The translations under genes and the position numbers were made by a program. The notes beneath the pieces are model-generated. The model had not been told where the DNA came from. It worked only from the letters and a program-made list of their open reading frames with translations, and did not search any database. Positions 21,975 to 31,586 of a stretch of 40,832 nucleotides of DNA are shown in pieces. The first letter of the stretch is position 1. Each line of letters opens with the position of its first letter. The stretch lies in IMG/VR virus record IMGVR_UViG_3300038660_000044, positions 1 through 40,832 of that record, one strand, 5' to 3'. This DNA is from a virus.

Positions 21975-22547
21975 CTACCATTCATCGCCGTTCGTGGCCG
22001 GGGCGGCTGGCTCCGATGTTGCTTTGCTTGGGAAGTAAGGGGCGACGATAGCGCCGTATTTTGAATACATCGCATCCGCCGCCTTGTGGCCTAGTGTGTC
22101 CAGCCAAGCCTTGACCGATGCGTTGCGGTAAGTGTCCAAATGGCGGTGCGGTAGCTTAGAGGCAAGCTGACCCCAGATTGCGGTTTCAGGAACGGGTTGT
22201 CCCTTCTCCATGCGCCCCTCGATCATATCGGCCTCGCTCTTTGGGTTGAACGTCTCCGCCGCTGCGAATTGCGATTGCTCACGGTTTGGCATTGCCATGA
22301 CAAAAGCCGCCTGTGGTGGCCATGTGTTGCTCTGGTGCGTGTCCATGATGCGGGTCAGGACTGCCGCAACCTTTTCTTCATAGCTTCCATCTGTCGGCAT
22401 CCGGCGCGCGAATGAATCCGATATTTGAATGATTCGGGTGGCGAGCTGCTTTTCATCCAAACCGCGAGGCGGGGAAAACATATCTAGGAAAGTGACTACC
22501 GCAGATCTAGCAGAATCCTTGCGCTGCTGAAAGTTAAGTTGGCTCAT
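21975..22547 (-). CDS. replication-module protein, possibly helicase loader
   Basis: This 190-residue protein overlaps the initiator stop by 4 bases. It is helical, without a Walker motif ('MPTDGSYEEKVAAVLTRIMD', 'DTLGHKAADAMYSKYGAIV'). Its place after an initiator with internal iterons resembles lambda O-P, where P loads the host helicase. That role is inferred from order only; the family is not recognised. Confidence 0.6.
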   Translation of the reverse strand: MSQLNFQQRKDSARSAVVTFLDMFSPPRGLDEKQLATRIIQISDSFARRMPTDGSYEEKVAAVLTRIMDTHQSNTWPPQAAFVMAMPNREQSQFAAAETFNPKSEADMIEGRMEKGQPVPETAIWGQLASKLPHRHLDTYRNASVKAWLDTLGHKAADAMYSKYGAIVAPYFPSKATSEPAAPATNGDEW

Positions 22548-23038
22548 TTGTTCATCTCCAGATATTTCTTAACACCCTCAGAAACTCCAAAAACTCTCGC
22601 CCCCCTTTTGGGGGGTTGGGGGGAAGGTTCATTTACTGGTTTATTTACAGAGTTAGTGGGCAAATTTTGCCTACGGTTACTACGTGAATTTGCCGACGGT
22701 GATTGCGAAGTTCTGCCGACGGCAGGATTTGCCGACGGTTTAGCTTCATGTTGTGCAAAATCAGGGTCACACCCCAATATGTAGGCATTGCTGGAATACT
22801 TGCCCGATGCCGCCTGAAACGTCTGAGATACCACCTTCAGCAGCCCCAAACGCTCCAAGATTGTGATCTGGTCATAGACGGACCTAACCGACATTTCACA
22901 GTCGTGTGCCAGCATCTCCTTGCTTGGGAAGCATCCATTGTCGGGGTGGTATCGGTCACATAGGTGCCAAAGCACGACCTTTGCAGCAGGCTTCAACCCG
23001 CGCTGCTTAATGGCCCAATTTGTTGCGTCGTGGCTCAT
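22544..23038 (-). CDS. replication initiator-like protein with N-terminal winged helix
   Basis: This 164-residue protein has an HTH_36-type domain: 'GLKPAAKVVLWHLCDRYH', 'GCFPSKEMLAHDCEMSVRSV' and 'ILERLGLLKVV'. The middle (about 95-130) is a low-complexity Ser/Asn/Arg region encoded by four iteron-like repeats, as in lambda O. It would bind these repeats and recruit the host replisome. A relic of a second allele of its first codons lies at 24229-24300. Confidence 0.8.
   Translation of the reverse strand: MSHDATNWAIKQRGLKPAAKVVLWHLCDRYHPDNGCFPSKEMLAHDCEMSVRSVYDQITILERLGLLKVVSQTFQAASGKYSSNAYILGCDPDFAQHEAKPSANPAVGRTSQSPSANSRSNRRQNLPTNSVNKPVNEPSPQPPKRGARVFGVSEGVKKYLEMNK
22600..22615. other. G/C hairpin (CCCCCC TTTT GGGGGG)
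   Basis: A perfect 6-bp G-C stem with a 4-nt T/A loop lies in the initiator coding region, about 50 bp from the iterons, with a further G-run after it. It may affect melting near the origin or simply encode 'PPKRG'. Confidence 0.4.
22666..22739. repeat. four iterons; putative replication origin
   Basis: The core TGCC(G/T)ACGG occurs at 22668, 22691, 22714 and 22730, in the same orientation, with spacing 23, 23 and 16. Three share the longer form TTTGCC(G/T)ACGGT. Regular spacing of about two helical turns inside an initiator gene is the lambda-type origin design. A/T-rich sequence adjoins at 22630-22670. Confidence 0.7.
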
Positions 23039-23931
23039 TTGTGTTTCTCGTTTTGCTCAACATCAAATGCGCTTGGCTTGATAGTTACATCATAGCCCCT
23101 CCACTGAAACGACATTTCGCCGCGAAGGTGAGCCGGGACGTGCTTAAAACTGCCAGTTTTTGCGCGTCTGATATGTTGCGAAACCCAATGCCTTAGCGCC
23201 GCCCTACGGTCACGATCTTCCGGCTTGTCCCTGTCATTGAATAACTCAAGTATGCCCCTTGGCGTGGTAGGCACAATAACCTTTGGCGAGTTTGGTATAC
23301 TAAACTGCGCGCCCCATTCATATCGCATCGTCAAGGCAATGCTTTGCCCTAATGCGGCCTGTATCCCTACATCATCTTCTCCTGTGTCAGAAAACATCTG
23401 CACAGGAGCCATGCCAGCGCCCCTTACATTTCTGATGAACGCTTCGTTGTATCGCAACCTGCGGCAGCTACGCCACTTCGCTCCATCCCATCCCGCATAT
23501 TCAACCGCAGATAAAAACTCTCCGTCAGGCGCAAGTATACCAGTGTAAAACCCTATATTTTTACGACCTACAAATTTGTATTTTCCTCGCAAATTCGCAC
23601 CATCAACGGTTTGCCAATAATTGAACCGTATTTCACGGCCAAACTCTTTTGATGTGGAGTATGAAAGTTTTCCGATCCTCATAGGCCAGCATATGTCTGG
23701 GCTGTTTACGTCCTCGGGCGCTGAAAATAATGTGTCATTGTCTAAAAGAGGCGAAACCCACATTGGGCCAAAGTCTTTAGGCAGGAACAGGCAGTCAGAA
23801 CGAGAACCTTTGACAGATATAGATCTAGCACGCATTGTCCTGTCGATCATGTCTGAAACCGCATCTTCTGTTACCAGCTTGCGGTGCTCTTTTGGCGGGA
23901 TTTTACCGCCTACTATTTTATGCAGTGTCAT
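23035..23931 (-). CDS. 298-residue early protein, unknown
   Basis: I chose ATG 23931 because the structured leader and a GAAGGG site lie just upstream; the frame continues to 23967 inside that leader. The C-terminal part, 'PRGILELFNDRDKPEDRDRR' followed by 'LRHWVSQHIRR' and 'VPAHLRGEMSFQWRG', looks like a protein seen in other alphaproteobacterial prophages, but I know no function. Its base composition seems more A/T-rich than neighbours. It is the first gene after the paired RNA element A. Confidence 0.75.
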   Translation of the reverse strand: MTLHKIVGGKIPPKEHRKLVTEDAVSDMIDRTMRARSISVKGSRSDCLFLPKDFGPMWVSPLLDNDTLFSAPEDVNSPDICWPMRIGKLSYSTSKEFGREIRFNYWQTVDGANLRGKYKFVGRKNIGFYTGILAPDGEFLSAVEYAGWDGAKWRSCRRLRYNEAFIRNVRGAGMAPVQMFSDTGEDDVGIQAALGQSIALTMRYEWGAQFSIPNSPKVIVPTTPRGILELFNDRDKPEDRDRRAALRHWVSQHIRRAKTGSFKHVPAHLRGEMSFQWRGYDVTIKPSAFDVEQNEKHK

Positions 23932-23934
23932 TTT

Positions 23935-24073
23935 CAGCCCTTCATGTATGGGCTGTGCCTTGCGCATTATTGCGCGGTATGTTACCTATGGCACAGCGTC
24001 TGAACACCGCTACCCTACCTCCTCCCGAGGTAAACGTCAAGCCCTGCCGTGAGTTATCCGGCAGGGCTTTTTT
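23935..24073 (+). ncRNA. structured intergenic element A (candidate small RNA)
   Basis: On the plus strand there are four hairpins in order. CAGCCC/GGGCTG (23935-23940 with 23950-23955, loop TTCATGTAT). GCGCA/TGCGC (23962-23966 with 23971-23975). AGCG/CGCT (23995-23998 with 24008-24011, loop TCTGAACAC). A 10-bp intrinsic terminator AGCCCTGCCG/CGGCAGGGCT (24040-24068) followed by six T. It is homologous to element B at 27217-27354. On the minus strand the same DNA is the leader of the gene starting at 23931. Either strand could be the functional RNA; the T-tract favours plus. Confidence 0.5.
24040..24073 (+). terminator. intrinsic terminator (plus strand)
   Basis: Perfect 10-bp GC-rich stem, 9-nt loop and a T-tract at 24068-24073 on the plus strand. 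All genes nearby are on the minus strand. The stop codon of the nuclease remnant (24072-24074) overlaps the T-tract. Confidence 0.8.
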
Positions 24074-24228
24074 ATCTTAACCCCTTCACCATACGCGCAA
24101 ACGCGGTAGCATCCTCTATCGTGCGCATGATGGTATGATCGCCACGCCATGTCTCCAAGAACGTCTCCTGCGGCCCTGTCAGCTTGCCCTCGGTCGTCTT
24201 TATCTCGACAAGGTACGAGCGGCCCCCC
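24072..24228 (-). pseudogene. C-terminal remnant of a VRR-NUC-like nuclease
   Basis: The minus strand encodes a C-terminal piece: 'GRSYLVEIKTTEGKLTG', 'PQETFLETWRGDHTIMR', 'TIEDATAFARMVKGLR', then a TAA stop. It carries the E-x-K catalytic motif and the Q-x-x-F-x-x-x-W element of VRR-NUC/Holliday-type nucleases. There is no start codon: upstream in frame are stop codons and a run of seven G. It is the truncated end of a gene brought in by recombination. Confidence 0.75.
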
Positions 24229-24300
24229 CTAGCCTATCAGTGCATCGGCAGGCTTCAATCCGCGCTGCTTAATGGCCCAATTTGTTGCATCATGGCTCAT
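24229..24300 (-). pseudogene. 23-residue relic of a second initiator allele
   Basis: ATG at 24300 (ATGA overlap with the gene upstream) starts 'MSHDATNWAIKQRGLKPA', identical in protein to the initiator at 23038, then diverges to 'DALIG' and a stop at 24229. Over 53 bp (24248-24300 against 22986-23038) only three bases differ, and all three are silent third-position changes. This means the copy came from a diverged but functional relative. Confidence 0.8.
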
Positions 24301-24596
24301 GGCACACCTGCCAGTCTTTTTAGCCTTCTATGAGACCAATAAACCATGCCATTCTTGCCCCAGTTTTCGTGCCTGTGGTTCTCAACACCGCACAATTCTG
24401 AAATGTCATTCCCAAACAAACCCGTAGGGCAATCATCGGGGCATCCATGCTTCAGGTCTCGCAGCGTCTTGGCGAGTTGCGCCGCCCCTCTCTCTGTTAG
24501 GGCAGCGCGCTTGTGTTTCTTGCGGTAGGCTATGAAGCTATCAACAGCATCGGCGTCTGCGTGGTGGCTCAGTATGTCGGCAGGGGTTTCAATCAT
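24297..24596 (-). CDS. small early protein, unknown
   Basis: This 99-residue protein is basic at residues 20-45 ('FIAYRKKHKRAALTERGAAQ') and has a Cys/His-rich middle ('HGCPDDCPTGLFG', 'CGVENHRHENW') that could bind metal. ATG 24596 overlaps the preceding 53-residue gene by 8 bases. Family not recognised. Confidence 0.7.
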   Translation of the reverse strand: MIETPADILSHHADADAVDSFIAYRKKHKRAALTERGAAQLAKTLRDLKHGCPDDCPTGLFGNDISELCGVENHRHENWGKNGMVYWSHRRLKRLAGVP

Positions 24597-24750
24597 CCCG
24601 AAGCGCCCACTTGATAAGCTGCACCGCGTACTGCGGATCAGTCATAACGACCTTGCCCGCATCCTCTGCGCTTGCCTTCGATTCCTTGAATTTCTCATAG
24701 TCTGCGGCTGGTATTGCAAGCCGCATGTGCTTGCGCCCATCATTTGCCAT
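24589..24750 (-). CDS. 53-residue protein, unknown
   Basis: ATG at 24750 overlaps the end of the ParB-like gene, and the stop overlaps the start of the next gene, so it is in a coupled chain. The start 'MANDGRKHMRLAIPAADYEK' has a basic strand then a helix, and the C-terminal helix is 'YAVQLIKWALRDD'. This could be a small ribbon-helix-helix-type DNA binder, but that is a guess. Confidence 0.6.
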   Translation of the reverse strand: MANDGRKHMRLAIPAADYEKFKESKASAEDAGKVVMTDPQYAVQLIKWALRDD

Positions 24751-25546
24751 TGAAAATCCCCATTGTCATAAAATTATCACTAGGAACACGAAGAATTTTA
24801 ATGTCTGTTCCTTTCTGATACGCGTGGAAGGCACGCAGCAACACCCTGTAAGCCTTTACACGATCTGGGCCACCACGGTTCGCCCCATGTGTAATCATGT
24901 AGTTTCTAGCTCGTATAATTACCGCATCATTTCCGCCCTCCGGCATACCAGAGGTCAATATACGACAAATTTTGTCCACCAAATTGATAGGCATGTTGCA
25001 ATACGTGGTTGCAACAGCAGCCCTTGTTATGCTGCTTTTCAGACCGTTACCCGCAAGCCCAGTTAAAGAACTTGATGAATAGTTTATTGCATCCGAAATG
25101 CACTCAATTGCGTCTGCTGTTTCTTTTACGGTCATTGTTCCAATGCTTCCGACTTCTGCCTGCCTAATCAATTTGACAATAGCTACAGCATGTTGATGAT
25201 ATTTTTCTAAGGATACCAGACCGCCAATCTTTATCGCATCAGAAACAGACCTTGCGCGGCCTTGGTCAATTACACTGCCATCTGTCTTGCTAAGCCCAGT
25301 CGCGACAAACATTTCCACTTCGACTCCTGCGCGCACAACCGCCGAAAGTCTGTGCTGGCCATCTGCCAAAATTCCGCCATCATAAAACGCAATTACGTTT
25401 TGATGTATATCTCTCCAGTTTCCAGCCTTCATATCCGAAGAATACTTATTGACCGTATGTTGTGAAATATTCCTGTTGCTCAGATTTGATAGGTCCAACC
25501 ACTCCTGAGCCATAGCAGGAGTGACATTTACTTTTTCGATTTCCAT
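24740..25546 (-). CDS. ParB/Srx-fold protein with DGQHRL motif
   Basis: This 268-residue protein has an N-terminal ParB/sulfiredoxin-like segment: 'YSSDMKAGNWRDIHQNVIAF', then 'YDGGILADGQHRLSAVVRAG', then 'VEMFVATGL'. The DGQHRL loop is typical of the ParB N-terminal (nucleotide-binding) superfamily, also seen in DndB-like proteins. The C-terminal half is helical. It may bind DNA or act on nucleotides. It has its own promoter (25584-25612) and appears A/T-richer than the structural genes. Confidence 0.72.
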   Translation of the reverse strand: MEIEKVNVTPAMAQEWLDLSNLSNRNISQHTVNKYSSDMKAGNWRDIHQNVIAFYDGGILADGQHRLSAVVRAGVEVEMFVATGLSKTDGSVIDQGRARSVSDAIKIGGLVSLEKYHQHAVAIVKLIRQAEVGSIGTMTVKETADAIECISDAINYSSSSLTGLAGNGLKSSITRAAVATTYCNMPINLVDKICRILTSGMPEGGNDAVIIRARNYMITHGANRGGPDRVKAYRVLLRAFHAYQKGTDIKILRVPSDNFMTMGIFNGK

Positions 25547-25583
25547 GATATAAATCCTTTATGGGTTGCTTGGTCGCACCCTT

Positions 25584-25612
25584 ACTATCAATTAGCGCCG
25601 CGCACTTGTCAA
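25584..25612 (-). promoter_or_regulatory. sigma70-type promoter upstream of the DGQHRL gene
   Basis: On the minus strand TTGACA (25607-25612, perfect -35) and GATAGT (25584-25589) are 17 bases apart. The -35 box lies in the loop of the plus-strand terminator hairpin at 25594-25625, so promoter and terminator overlap. Transcription would start near 25577. Confidence 0.7.
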
Positions 25613-25630
25613 CAGTCGCGGCGCTTTTTT
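25594..25630 (+). terminator. intrinsic terminator (plus strand)
   Basis: AGCGCCGCG (25594-25602) pairs with CGCGGCGCT (25617-25625), followed by six T on the plus strand. A smaller hairpin AATCC/GGGTT (25553-25567, one U-G pair only on the plus strand) precedes it, giving a short element similar in plan to A and B. Confidence 0.75.
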
Positions 25631-26045
25631 ATTGGCGATTGCCCTTTATTTTATGACTGGCATTTGCTTTAGACATAGCCCGACACCCGTTACTGCCCCC
25701 GATATACAGAGCAGCACCTAACCCTCCTGATCTGTATCCATGCGATGCCTTTTATCGGTGGCCAGCCGCTGCCCGGTGTGATTGCTCTAGTACACCTACC
25801 GCAACGCGCGGCACCTATCGGGGTTTATGTTTCGCATTTCGCGCGCCGCCTAGTTAGGACCGGATGGCGCAGGGACGGGTGATGGCCCCAGATCATATCC
25901 CATTGCTTAGAGCGCATAGGGCAAAGCTGCCTCGGTTTATTGTAAACCGTCAAAAATCAGGAGGGGTTCTTGTTGCAATTCGCCCGTGTAAACGGTATAT
26001 TTGCGTCAGATGCGCGATGACCCGTCCAAAGGTCGCGTGTCTCAA
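25631..26045. other. gene-poor interval
   Basis: About 415 bp without a convincing gene. A plus-strand frame 25864-26091 (75 residues, basic, Arg/Cys rich) has no clear ribosome site and ends inside a terminator hairpin, so I do not call it. No tRNA or repeat was recognised. It could hold a small RNA ending at the 26046-26089 terminator. Confidence 0.4.
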
Positions 26046-26089
26046 GGCGGCGCATGATCTTGAATGGTCGCGCCGCCGCTTTCTTTCTT
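26046..26089 (+). terminator. intrinsic terminator (plus strand)
   Basis: GGCGGCGC (26046-26053) pairs with GCGCCGCC (26070-26077), followed by the T-rich tail GCTTTCTTTCTT on the plus strand. It lies just after the stop of the minus-strand gene 26096-26551 and is a third plus-oriented terminator in a minus-coded region. Confidence 0.6.
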
Positions 26090-26095
26090 AGAGCA

Positions 26096-26551
26096 TCAAT
26101 TCTGCGCAGTCAACTGAACACTGCCATCCCCATTTTCTTTGCGCTGTAGAATGTAAGCCCTGATTTCCTTGGCGTGCTTGCGCAGCCCCCTGGCTTGCTT
26201 GCCAAACTCATCGGCGCGGGCCTCCAGTTCCTCATCAGTGCAAAACTGAATAGGGACAAGCAAGTGATCCCCATTGCGGTGAATGGGATATGCCGTCTTG
26301 AGTTGCTCAAAACCTTCCATCAGCGGCGTGTCGGCTTCTGGCGTATCGTACTTATTCACCGCCGCTTTCACCATTCCGTTGATCGTCTCGCGCGCGCAGA
26401 TGATGTAAAAGTCAGCGTCAGCGCCTTCAATTTCTGCATGGTCGCTAATCACGCGCGCCGTGAAGAAATCAACGTGACCGATTGCGCCGCTTTCAACGGT
26501 ATCTTGCACCAGCTTGCGAATATCGGCCTTGATCTGCTTTATGTCTTTCAT
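26096..26551 (-). CDS. conserved early protein, unknown
   Basis: This 151-residue protein is mainly helical: 'MKDIKQIKADIRKLVQDTV' at the start and 'CTDEELEARADEFGKQARGL' near the end, with a central 'ETINGMVKAAVNKYD'. The style is common in alphaproteobacterial phages, but I know no function. An AAGGAT site precedes ATG 26551. It follows the 219-residue gene with a 2-base gap. Confidence 0.7.
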   Translation of the reverse strand: MKDIKQIKADIRKLVQDTVESGAIGHVDFFTARVISDHAEIEGADADFYIICARETINGMVKAAVNKYDTPEADTPLMEGFEQLKTAYPIHRNGDHLLVPIQFCTDEELEARADEFGKQARGLRKHAKEIRAYILQRKENGDGSVQLTAQN

Positions 26552-26553
26552 GG

Positions 26554-27213
26554 TTAAATCCTTGTTGCGATTTTGTCTGTTACAGCATCAATGCGATTGA
26601 TTGCGGCCCGCATCCGTTGCCGCTCCTTGTCGTTGAGCGTTGGCAATATCAGATCGTGACTTTGCCGCTCCAACTCTTTCGCCGCTTCCTCGAAGTCAGC
26701 AACATAATGCAGCGCGCGGTTAAATTCGTGAGGGTCACGGCCTTCCAGATCGACAATGTTTTCGCGCTTCTTTGTGCCCTGTGCCGCAAGCTGTGAAAGG
26801 GTAGGCGGGTTGTCGCTTTCAACTTGTGATTCAAAAACATCGGAAGGGATATTACCTATTCTAGCCATTTGCATTTGCTGATGCTTAGACATTCCGGCAT
26901 CACGGGCGGCTGATTCTCGGCTGAATTGAGTATGCCCACCCTCACCTAATTCAGGCTTTGGCCCCGGCTTTCCCGGCTCAATCTGATTGTACAATTCAGA
27001 CGCGCGCCGTATTGCACGCGCCCTGATACGCTGCGCCATCCGTTCAAGCTCTTGGTCTTGAGATTGCCGCGCATAGCTTGCAAGAGCGGCGGCTTTGTCT
27101 GCCCAGTCTTTGCACTCATCAACTTGACTGCACTGCGAAAGCGCAATCTGAGCATTCTGATAGGTCTGCGGCAATGATGCGCCCGACACTGATATGTTAG
27201 CTGGTAAATTCAT
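26554..27213 (-). CDS. partition/ParB-like helical DNA-binding protein
   Basis: This 219-residue protein opens with 'QVDECKDWADKAAALASYAR' and 'RMAQRIRARAIRRASELYNQ', a pattern common in phage and plasmid proteins next to ParB-type HTH segments. Residues about 100-125 ('SRESAARDAGMSKHQQMQMA') form a helix-turn-helix. The C-terminal third is helical. It probably binds DNA. Its leader is structured element B, with the ribosome site inside a hairpin. Confidence 0.65.
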   Translation of the reverse strand: MNLPANISVSGASLPQTYQNAQIALSQCSQVDECKDWADKAAALASYARQSQDQELERMAQRIRARAIRRASELYNQIEPGKPGPKPELGEGGHTQFSRESAARDAGMSKHQQMQMARIGNIPSDVFESQVESDNPPTLSQLAAQGTKKRENIVDLEGRDPHEFNRALHYVADFEEAAKELERQSHDLILPTLNDKERQRMRAAINRIDAVTDKIATRI

Positions 27214-27216
27214 TTT

Positions 27217-27354
27217 TAGCCCTTCATGTTTGGGCTACACCTTGCGCGGATTGCCCGCTTAATGGTATACAAGATATAGCGCGTGAACACCGCTATCTTG
27301 CGCCATAACCGGCAAAAGAGCAAGCCCTGCCCGTTAAATCAGGCGGGGCTTTTT
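27217..27354 (+). ncRNA. structured intergenic element B (candidate small RNA, homologous to A)
   Basis: The plus strand carries the same order of hairpins as element A. TAGCCC/GGGCTA (27217-27222 with 27232-27237, loop TTCATGTTT). GCGG/CCGC (27246-27249 with 27255-27258). A bulged 10-bp stem (27270-27281 with 27291-27300, loop CGTGAACAC). A terminator (27323-27350) with five T. The closing pair of the first stem is C-G in A and T-A in B, a covariation. A U-G pair in the terminator exists only on the plus strand. Length (138) equals that of A (139). Confidence 0.5.
27323..27354 (+). terminator. intrinsic terminator (plus strand)
   Basis: AGCCCTGCC (27323-27331) pairs with GGCGGGGCT (27342-27350) including one U-G pair, followed by TTTTT. 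No plus-strand gene precedes it, which supports a short RNA or protection against antisense transcription. Confidence 0.7.
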
Positions 27355-27518
27355 CGCGGAAACATATGCGCAAGCTGGCCCGATGCGCGCAATTCCTGCA
27401 ACTCATAGCGAACCCCAGAAAGCGGTATCCGGTACATCACCGCAATATCCTCAACGCCATATTCGGCGGCGATCTGCTCGCGCACAATGCAGGCGCGGGT
27501 GGCTGTGGTCATAGTCAT
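27339..27518 (-). CDS. 59-residue HTH protein
   Basis: ATG 27518 overlaps the stop of the VRR-NUC-like gene as ATGA; the longer frame to 27575 would overlap it more. 'YGVEDIAVMYRIPLSGVRYE' fits a helix-turn-helix, followed by 'LQELRASGQLAHMF'. The 3' end overlaps the terminator of element B. Function unknown. Confidence 0.65.
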   Translation of the reverse strand: MTMTTATRACIVREQIAAEYGVEDIAVMYRIPLSGVRYELQELRASGQLAHMFPRKSPA

Positions 27519-29377: not shown

Positions 29378-30117
29378 TAGTTTGCCCCCTCATATGGAAT
29401 GGCATCGCCGTCCAGATCGTCTGACATTGTATCGGCAACAGCTTGGATTGCATCGCGTCGTTTGTTCTTTGCGGCCTCGATCTCTGCGAACATATCGGCG
29501 CTGGCGGCCTTCACCTCGGCAATAGTGTCGCGTTCTTGCGTCCACCGTTCTTTCAGATCGTCCAGCGTTTCGGACAGGGCCAGCTTGCCCTTGATGCGCT
29601 TCGTTGCAGCGGCAGCGTCAAACTTAGGCGCTTGATGCTGTTCTGTCGCGTTAAGGTCAGCATCGTCCTTGTCGCCTGTCGGGATCATCAGCATGGCGCG
29701 GAAGAATTGCTTTAGAGCATAGCTTTGCGCTGACCCGCTAGATTGCGCTCCGTTCATCGGCACTGCTACCATCATGTTGACCGGGCCAAGCGTTTCGCCG
29801 CTTTCGTGGTGCATCGTGACATCGTAAAAGAACCGCGCCCATACAGACTTGCCGCCCTTGCTGTTTACGTTCTCGTAAAACTCAACCTCTCGCTGTGACA
29901 CAATCGGGAAAAGCCCGTTGCGCCCGCATATCGGGTTAACAAGTGTCAAAAACTTGTCGATACCTGCGAAGTCGTAACCGTCAAATTTATTGCGGTCGCT
30001 TTTCCCGATTACGCGAACCTCCCGCACTGCGGATGCGATTGCAGCGGCGATGCTCTTGTGTGCCGGAGCGGCCTCTTGCGTGGCTTCGTCCTTTGGTGTT
30101 TTATTCTCAGCAGTCAT
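29377..30117 (-). CDS. erf: ERF-family single-strand annealing protein
   Basis: This 246-residue recombinase has the ERF core: 'FDGYDFAGIDKFLTLVNPIC', 'GAQSSGSAQSYALKQFF' and 'MLMIPTGDKDDAD'. It anneals complementary single strands during phage recombination and circularisation. The C-terminus 'DDLDGDAIPYEGAN' resembles the acidic tail of the SSB-like protein encoded here. It is normally used with a 5' exonuclease; none is recognised nearby. Confidence 0.9.
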   Translation of the reverse strand: MTAENKTPKDEATQEAAPAHKSIAAAIASAVREVRVIGKSDRNKFDGYDFAGIDKFLTLVNPICGRNGLFPIVSQREVEFYENVNSKGGKSVWARFFYDVTMHHESGETLGPVNMMVAVPMNGAQSSGSAQSYALKQFFRAMLMIPTGDKDDADLNATEQHQAPKFDAAAATKRIKGKLALSETLDDLKERWTQERDTIAEVKAASADMFAEIEAAKNKRRDAIQAVADTMSDDLDGDAIPYEGAN

Positions 30118-31354: not shown

Positions 31355-31551
31355 TGATCCCACCCACAAGCTGGCACATCGCCGCCTGTAACCATTTCAA
31401 TCGCCATACGTTGCGCTTGCGATGCTGTTGTGCGTCCGGCGACGATAGCCGCCGACTGCGAAGGGCCAATGCCAATTTGCTTGCCTAGCCATGTGGCGCT
31501 GCGGTCGTTTGCAGTCAGCCAAGATTTGATTGAGTTTTGATTTTTTTCCAT
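31351..31551 (-). CDS. Cro/CI-type HTH regulator
   Basis: This 66-residue protein has a lambda-repressor-like HTH: 'RSATWLGKQIGIGPSQSAAI' followed by 'VAGRTTASQAQRMAIEM'. It is the first gene of the early minus-strand operon and diverges from the plus-strand genes, so it probably binds the operators at 31552-31688. It lacks an oligomerisation or cleavage domain and is thus Cro-like. No ribosome site is visible upstream of its ATG. Confidence 0.78.
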   Translation of the reverse strand: MEKNQNSIKSWLTANDRSATWLGKQIGIGPSQSAAIVAGRTTASQAQRMAIEMVTGGDVPACGWDQ

Positions 31552-31559
31552 GTTTTGAC

Positions 31560-31586
31560 GCTATAGCCTACGGGGTTAGAAGTCAA
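31560..31586 (-). promoter_or_regulatory. early promoter (minus) with possible leaderless start
   Basis: TTGACT (31581-31586) and TATAGC (31560-31565) are spaced 15 bp. The -10 box is only 8 bases from the ATG at 31551, so the transcript would begin almost at the start codon. This explains the missing ribosome site. The short spacer makes the promoter weaker or dependent on a factor. Confidence 0.45.

Follow-up and report, generated by a model that had tools for sequence, protein, structure and literature searches.

Plasmids and bacteriophage lambda provide the classic cases of short counter-transcripts at replication genes; the role of the 77-nt lambda OOP RNA is debated. To our knowledge, few phage parallels to such counter-transcripts have been described. 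Coliphage 186 has opposed, face-to-face promoters that interfere with each other, as proposed for the elements reported here; its pR and pL drive the lytic and lysogenic operons, however, and not a short terminated RNA. In lambda, a short terminated RNA leaves a site just upstream of O and is opposed to O transcription; the opposed promoter pO lowers the output of pR, and loss of pO impairs replication (PMC3985674). In repABC replicons, where the ctRNA (inc-alpha) belongs to the repB–repC region, a large stem-loop in the leader leaves the Shine-Dalgarno (SD) sequence free unless the ctRNA pairs (PMC3155836). The SAS/ESAS of cluster K mycobacteriophages are conserved sequences located 3–7 bp before the starts of unrelated genes, with an inverted repeat upstream; the SAS measures 13 bp and occurs in 11–19 copies per genome (PMC3203893).

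Here we analysed a virus record of 40,832 bases over its whole length (the window), which contains two related intergenic elements, A and B (Table 1). The two are homologous, with 70% identity over an alignment of ~145 bp, and nothing else in the 40,832-base record matches them. Their outline had been recognised in a first-pass annotation made from the letters of the window, and most of that description holds. As delimited there, the elements were to begin 3–5 bp past a start codon, and they do so 4 bp beyond 23931 (A) and 4 bp beyond 27213 (B). The loop sequences TTCATGT-T and TGAACAC are found in both, the plus-strand terminators are present, including the U-G pair of B, and the minus-strand ribosome site GAAGGG does lie in hairpin 1. 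The gene downstream of A adjoins an O-like replication gene (22544–23038).

Table 1. Positions of elements A and B, their predicted parts and their downstream genes in the window.
Feature	Position	Strand	Details
Element A	23932..24073		142 bp; between the stop codon of the upstream minus-strand gene and start codon 23931
A, P+ (plus promoter-like)	23960..23988	+	-35 TTGCGC 23960-23965, 17 bp, -10 TACCTA 23983-23988
A, predicted counter-transcript	23995..24073	+	~80 nt; from promoter and fold
A, H3 (5' hairpin of counter-transcript)	23995-23998/24008-24011	+	loop TCTGAACAC
A, hairpin P1	within 24014-24034	+	core TACCTC/GAGGTA
A, terminator	24039-24049/24059-24069	+	followed by T-run
A, P- (minus promoter-like)	24012..24040	-	-35 TTGACG 24040-24035, 17 bp, -10 TAGGGT 24017-24012
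A, predicted mRNA leader from P-	23932..24005	-	
A, helix H2	23990-23997 with 23952-23959	-	in leader
A, hairpin H1	23950-23955 with 23935-23940	-	overlaps H2; 3' arm is Shine-Dalgarno GGGC beside ATG 23931
Gene downstream of A	23035..23931	-	298 aa; no family match
Element B	27214..27354		second copy; abuts start codon 27213
B, P+	27242..27271	+	-35 TTGCGC 27242-27247, 18 bp, -10 TATACA 27266-27271
B, predicted counter-transcript	27278..27355	+	~80 nt; contains H3, P1 and terminator
B, H3	27278-27281/27291-27294	+	loop CGTGAACAC
B, terminator	27322-27332/27341-27351	+	includes U-G pair
B, P-	27295..27323	-	-35 TTGCTC 27323-27318, 17 bp, -10 CAAGAT 27300-27295
B, predicted mRNA leader	27214..27288	-	
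B, H2	27270-27280 with 27234-27244	-	
B, H1	27232-27237 with 27217-27222	-	holds Shine-Dalgarno
Gene downstream of B	26554..27213	-	219 aa; phrog_33995, weak AbiEi_1 match

Eighteen further members were found in virus contigs and one cultured phage, which brings the family to 20 with A and B. Because the members are related to one another, and the covariance models used to find them derive from members already known, counts over the family are not independent. Pattern scans of viral contigs yielded four more close members (L008, L018, L035 and L063). An exonuclease alignment from the phages of the close members led to 58 related loci, among which the first covariance model identified five remote members. 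The replication protein of L365, used as a tblastn query, led to Octadecabacter Antarctic DB virus 2 (OANV2, MW805364), a phage isolate that lyses infected cells (PMC9239159); its host is Octadecabacter IceBac 430, and both of its predicted start sites lie within 29748–29882. A final protein search added eight members. Median identity among 14 representatives is 0.61. Terminator-only side matches aside, the 15 related records tested carry one element each; OANV2 likewise has one, its second match being the terminator palindrome only. Two elements occur in the window and in its near twin L017, and the single-element phages lack the genes lying between A and B. Covarying homologues, the absence of which the first-pass annotation would have held against its reading, are present in related phages.

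A further motif scan of the viral contigs, made with a relaxed hairpin-1 pattern, gave no extra members. R1 and R2 were also searched against 397 whole genomes from a single host family; among the matches listed, all were short or terminator-driven, and absence there is weak evidence because the fast first pass of the search scores few candidates. Rfam returned no match at the gathering threshold for the whole window, and neither element was matched at E ≤ 1 in 23900–27400. The elements of A, B, L359 and L409 have no DNA similarity to known phages or plasmids beyond terminator-like fragments, and a literature search for such an element found no description. As to the phage itself, a Mu-like identity was rejected, its genes being ERF, exonuclease, O-like and endolysin.

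In all members the element lies between one gene's stop codon and the next gene's start codon, and it always abuts the latter. The downstream gene encodes a DUF1376 or an O-like/DnaD-like replication protein in most cases, and Dam, Lar, T5orf172 or unknown proteins in the others. The upstream genes (VRR-NUC-like, SSB, small HTH and others) are unrelated between phages and overlap the element by the terminator at most. Because the flanking genes on both sides change from phage to phage, the element behaves as a portable cassette. It most often heads the replication module; some members have an unrelated gene downstream or are separated from the initiator gene by ~300 bp to kilobases. Upstream of the replication genes of L366, L378, L346 and L333 the model gave no match. 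Other, non-homologous promoter-plus-terminator arrangements are seen in these four, reading away from the replication genes, and are perhaps further OOP-like units.

Two promoter-like sequences face each other within ~80 bp of the element. The minus-strand motif P- (TTG-17-xAxxxT) occurs once in each of the 20 members, while any other spacing is found in at most 6 of 20. The plus-strand motif P+ (TTG-17/18-TA) is likewise present in 20/20, with a spacing of 17 in 16 members and of 18 in the rest. Every P- has the second A and the last T (-7) of its -10. In most members P+ is without this last T, and a missing -7 T is common in Alphaproteobacteria (PMC8407463). The predicted start sites of P+ and P- overlap by 8–12 nt in every case. 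Within the window, the paired signature in this orientation is confined to A and B, against 0.1 expected per strand from mononucleotide shuffles, an expectation that may understate chance, as two pairs occur elsewhere in the opposite orientation. A generic sigma-70 consensus scan at 9/12 listed neither P+ nor P- of A and B, and the case for these promoters is therefore comparative. They were first read off 11 members and all nine members found later conform, although this conformity is only partly independent, since the model that found those nine had been built from whole elements including the promoters.

The counter-RNA predicted from P+ measures 77–83 nt in all members, folds as H3, P1 and a terminal intrinsic terminator, and has a fold energy lower than that of shuffles by 2 to 9 standard deviations. 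Weak U-tracts are seen in L360, L362 and L365. The leader predicted from P- is 67–79 nt long throughout. Covariation was assessed by a swap test on 14 diverged representatives, in which own and swapped windows were searched alike. It was seen for H2 and the terminator (both p<0.0001), P1 (p=0.003) and H1 (p=0.014); the value for H3 was p=0.057. Read on the plus strand, the interior wobbles are 8 GU to 1 AC in the terminator and 1 GU to 9 AC in H2 (Fisher p=0.001, with cells that are not independent because close relatives share some wobbles). This places the terminator in the plus-strand RNA and H2 in the minus-strand RNA. P1, which lies in the P- spacer, could act as an operator in the DNA instead of forming an RNA hairpin, and its wobbles do not distinguish between the two. 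TAGCG-N9-CGCTA, considered as a genome-wide repressor operator, occurs nowhere but inside the elements and is now read as H3; within the elements it may have a DNA-operator role.

In the minus-strand RNA, the 3' arm of H1 is the SD sequence directly before the start codon, and H1 shares 2–6 nt with H2 in 20/20. When the first H2 strand was removed, predicted H1 pairing rose or was unchanged in nearly all folds, reaching at least 0.89 in 18 of the 20 members; the exceptions are L423, without a predicted H1, and L371, where it is weak. The predicted counter-RNA starts 2–3 nt inside this first H2 strand in every member. At the level of sequence, the comparison thus establishes homology, both motifs with fixed spacing, overlap of the predicted starts, covariation, the strands of the terminator and H2, and the overlap of H1 with H2. 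In the close members, the minus strand over the ribosome site reads ATG AAG GGC and then a stop or near-stop (23934–23948 and 27216–27230), a possible three-codon leader peptide (MKG and stop) that is present only in the close group and absent from remote members.

These results modify the earlier description in several respects. The closing pair of hairpin 1, reported there as covarying, does differ between CAGCCC/GGGCTG in A and TAGCCC/GGGCTA in B, but is weak as covariation because it is not kept on the plus strand in the close relatives L018, L063 and L035; convincing covariation comes from H2 and the terminator. Nor do the hairpins form a set of four within a single RNA: H1 and H2 are features of the minus-strand RNA, the terminator of the plus-strand one. 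A small RNA and a regulatory leader had been offered as alternatives, and the comparison supports both at once on opposite strands, with a predicted promoter and ~80-nt terminated transcript on the plus strand and a predicted promoter and structured, SD-holding leader on the minus strand. The small RNA would indeed be antisense to the intergenic region and, within the leader, to its outermost 5' end. It would leave the ribosome site uncovered, however, because its predicted start at ~23995 lies inside the element and excludes hairpin 1.

We propose that A and B are probably two copies of a compact control module, one that mostly heads phage replication genes and in which two opposed promoters compete, one for the mRNA and the other for a counter-RNA of ~80 bases. 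P- would make the mRNA of the downstream gene, and its leader would fold into H2 and the overlapping, SD-holding H1. As H1 overlaps H2, the two would compete and set translation. P+ would make the ~80-nt counter-RNA (H3, P1 and terminator), stopping near the stop codon of the upstream gene. Since the promoters face each other and the 5' ends of their RNAs overlap by ~11 nt, polymerase could hardly use both at once, and firing of P+ would lower expression of the gene through occlusion and collision. A second possible effect is pairing of the counter-RNA, over the length of the element, with operon read-through mRNA, whose stretch immediately preceding H2 would then be covered. Such pairing would disturb the strand needed for H2 and favour H1, and we infer that the counter-RNA closes H1 in this way. 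The overlap of H1 with H2 fits a repABC-like leader switch by the predicted counter-RNA. That both promoters fire, that they interfere, that the RNAs pair and that replication timing is what is controlled are likewise steps that we infer. The most likely function is the control of replication-gene expression by mutually exclusive transcription combined with an RNA switch.

Other readings of the element give more weight to one of its parts. It is unlikely that the plus RNA is chiefly a trans-acting small RNA, pairing with phage or host mRNAs through the loops of H3 and P1, and that its position at replication genes is incidental. A three-hairpin, Rho-independent RNA of constant length would suit this role, as would the unrelated genes up- and downstream and a P1 loop that is often ACC-rich and reads CTCCC in A. 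The loops are not strictly conserved over the family, however, P- and the SD hairpin are conserved as well as P+, and the element invariably abuts a start codon. Rather improbable is a portable expression cassette in which the minus strand alone matters, through P- and its structured leader, and the terminator merely ends spurious opposed transcription. The strict spacing of P-, its conserved -7 T and the H2 wobbles favouring the minus-strand RNA agree with such a cassette, but the TTG and TA of P+ are invariant in 20/20 at 17–18 bp, and the plus RNA is constant in length, with a terminator that covaries.

A role as primer or at the origin was first proposed for lambda oop, and the element could be tied to a replication origin in the same manner, with the plus RNA as primer or with transcription from P+ activating the origin. 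The element does head replication genes, and loss of pO impairs lambda replication (PMC3985674), but the members that precede unrelated genes or lie at a distance from the initiator gene make this very unlikely. We give the least credence to the idea that the element, like SAS/ESAS, is a repeat associated with start codons or a linker for recombination, which spread as gene cassettes were exchanged by homology. The position between the stop and start codons of unrelated genes and the lack of the genes between A and B in one-element phages would suit a linker. The family's element is ~140 bp long, however, and usually occurs once per phage, with one copy per record in the relatives as opposed to the 11–19 per genome for SAS. 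There is also little support for mRNA hairpins from SAS repeats, whereas the helices of the family covary, and covarying helices and two promoters would be unexpected in a mere linker.

The proposed module of competing promoters shares features with both lambda and repABC. As with lambda pO/OOP, the P+ motif of all 20 members stands, in most, directly before DUF1376/O-like genes and would read away from them, giving an ~80-nt RNA with an intrinsic terminator. In contrast to the family, which has both predicted promoters within ~80 bp and overlapping 5' ends of their RNAs, lambda has a distant pR and no dedicated O promoter opposite pO. The antisense target of OOP is the 3' end of cII, whereas the family's upstream gene varies and is not cII, and the family adds the proposed switch of the SD-holding hairpin. 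No sequence homology between lambda pO/OOP and the family was established. With the repABC ctRNA the family shares an alphaproteobacterial replication gene, a short intergenic counter-RNA and an SD-freeing stem-loop in the leader (PMC3155836). It differs in that its gene has its own promoter facing the counter-promoter, in that the replicon is a phage without RepC, and in that the alternative structure of the leader is an SD hairpin and not a terminator; nor are the neighbouring genes repB or repC. With no cII upstream and no repB/repC beside it, the module falls into neither the lambda OOP nor the repABC class.

What appears new in these sequences is the compact form of a proposed counter-transcription control of replication genes, with two facing promoters. 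We tentatively suggest a new family of control elements in relatives of known Octadecabacter/Sulfitobacter phages. Each would be a portable cassette of 140 bp whose two promoters, mutually exclusive in use, may set initiator expression together with the H1/H2 translation switch, with the counter-RNA acting by occlusion and pairing, as a phage counterpart of plasmid copy-number control. A family that combines both promoters, the counter-RNA and the SD switch in 140 bp would offer an independent comparative test of the role of such RNAs in phage replication, and it is directly testable because one member comes from a lytic phage that is in culture, as is its host.

Several observations concern the surroundings of the elements. 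Next to A, the minus strand at 24080–24300 holds what by eye is a short VRR-NUC-like gene, seemingly broken near a C-run at ~24223; nuclease genes resembling it adjoin the element in L400 and L420. A 640-bp gap between VRR-NUC and HNH genes in Sulfitobacter phage phiGT1 (L406:16365–17005) has no annotated features, and the model gives no match in it. In the window, the ~550-nt intergenic region 25547–26095 is without a clear minus gene and shows, on the plus strand, a hairpin with a T-run at ~25598–25631 and at ~26047–26090; nearly the same sequence is found in L289. A minus promoter-like sequence, TTGACA-17-GATAGT, lies at 25612–25584, before the gene 24740–25546. A further promoter-like sequence, TTGACT-17-TATAGC (31551–31586), immediately precedes the ATG at 31551 with which a small gene resembling a repressor begins (phrog_1468, E 0.006), and possibly gives a leaderless early transcript reading through B and A.
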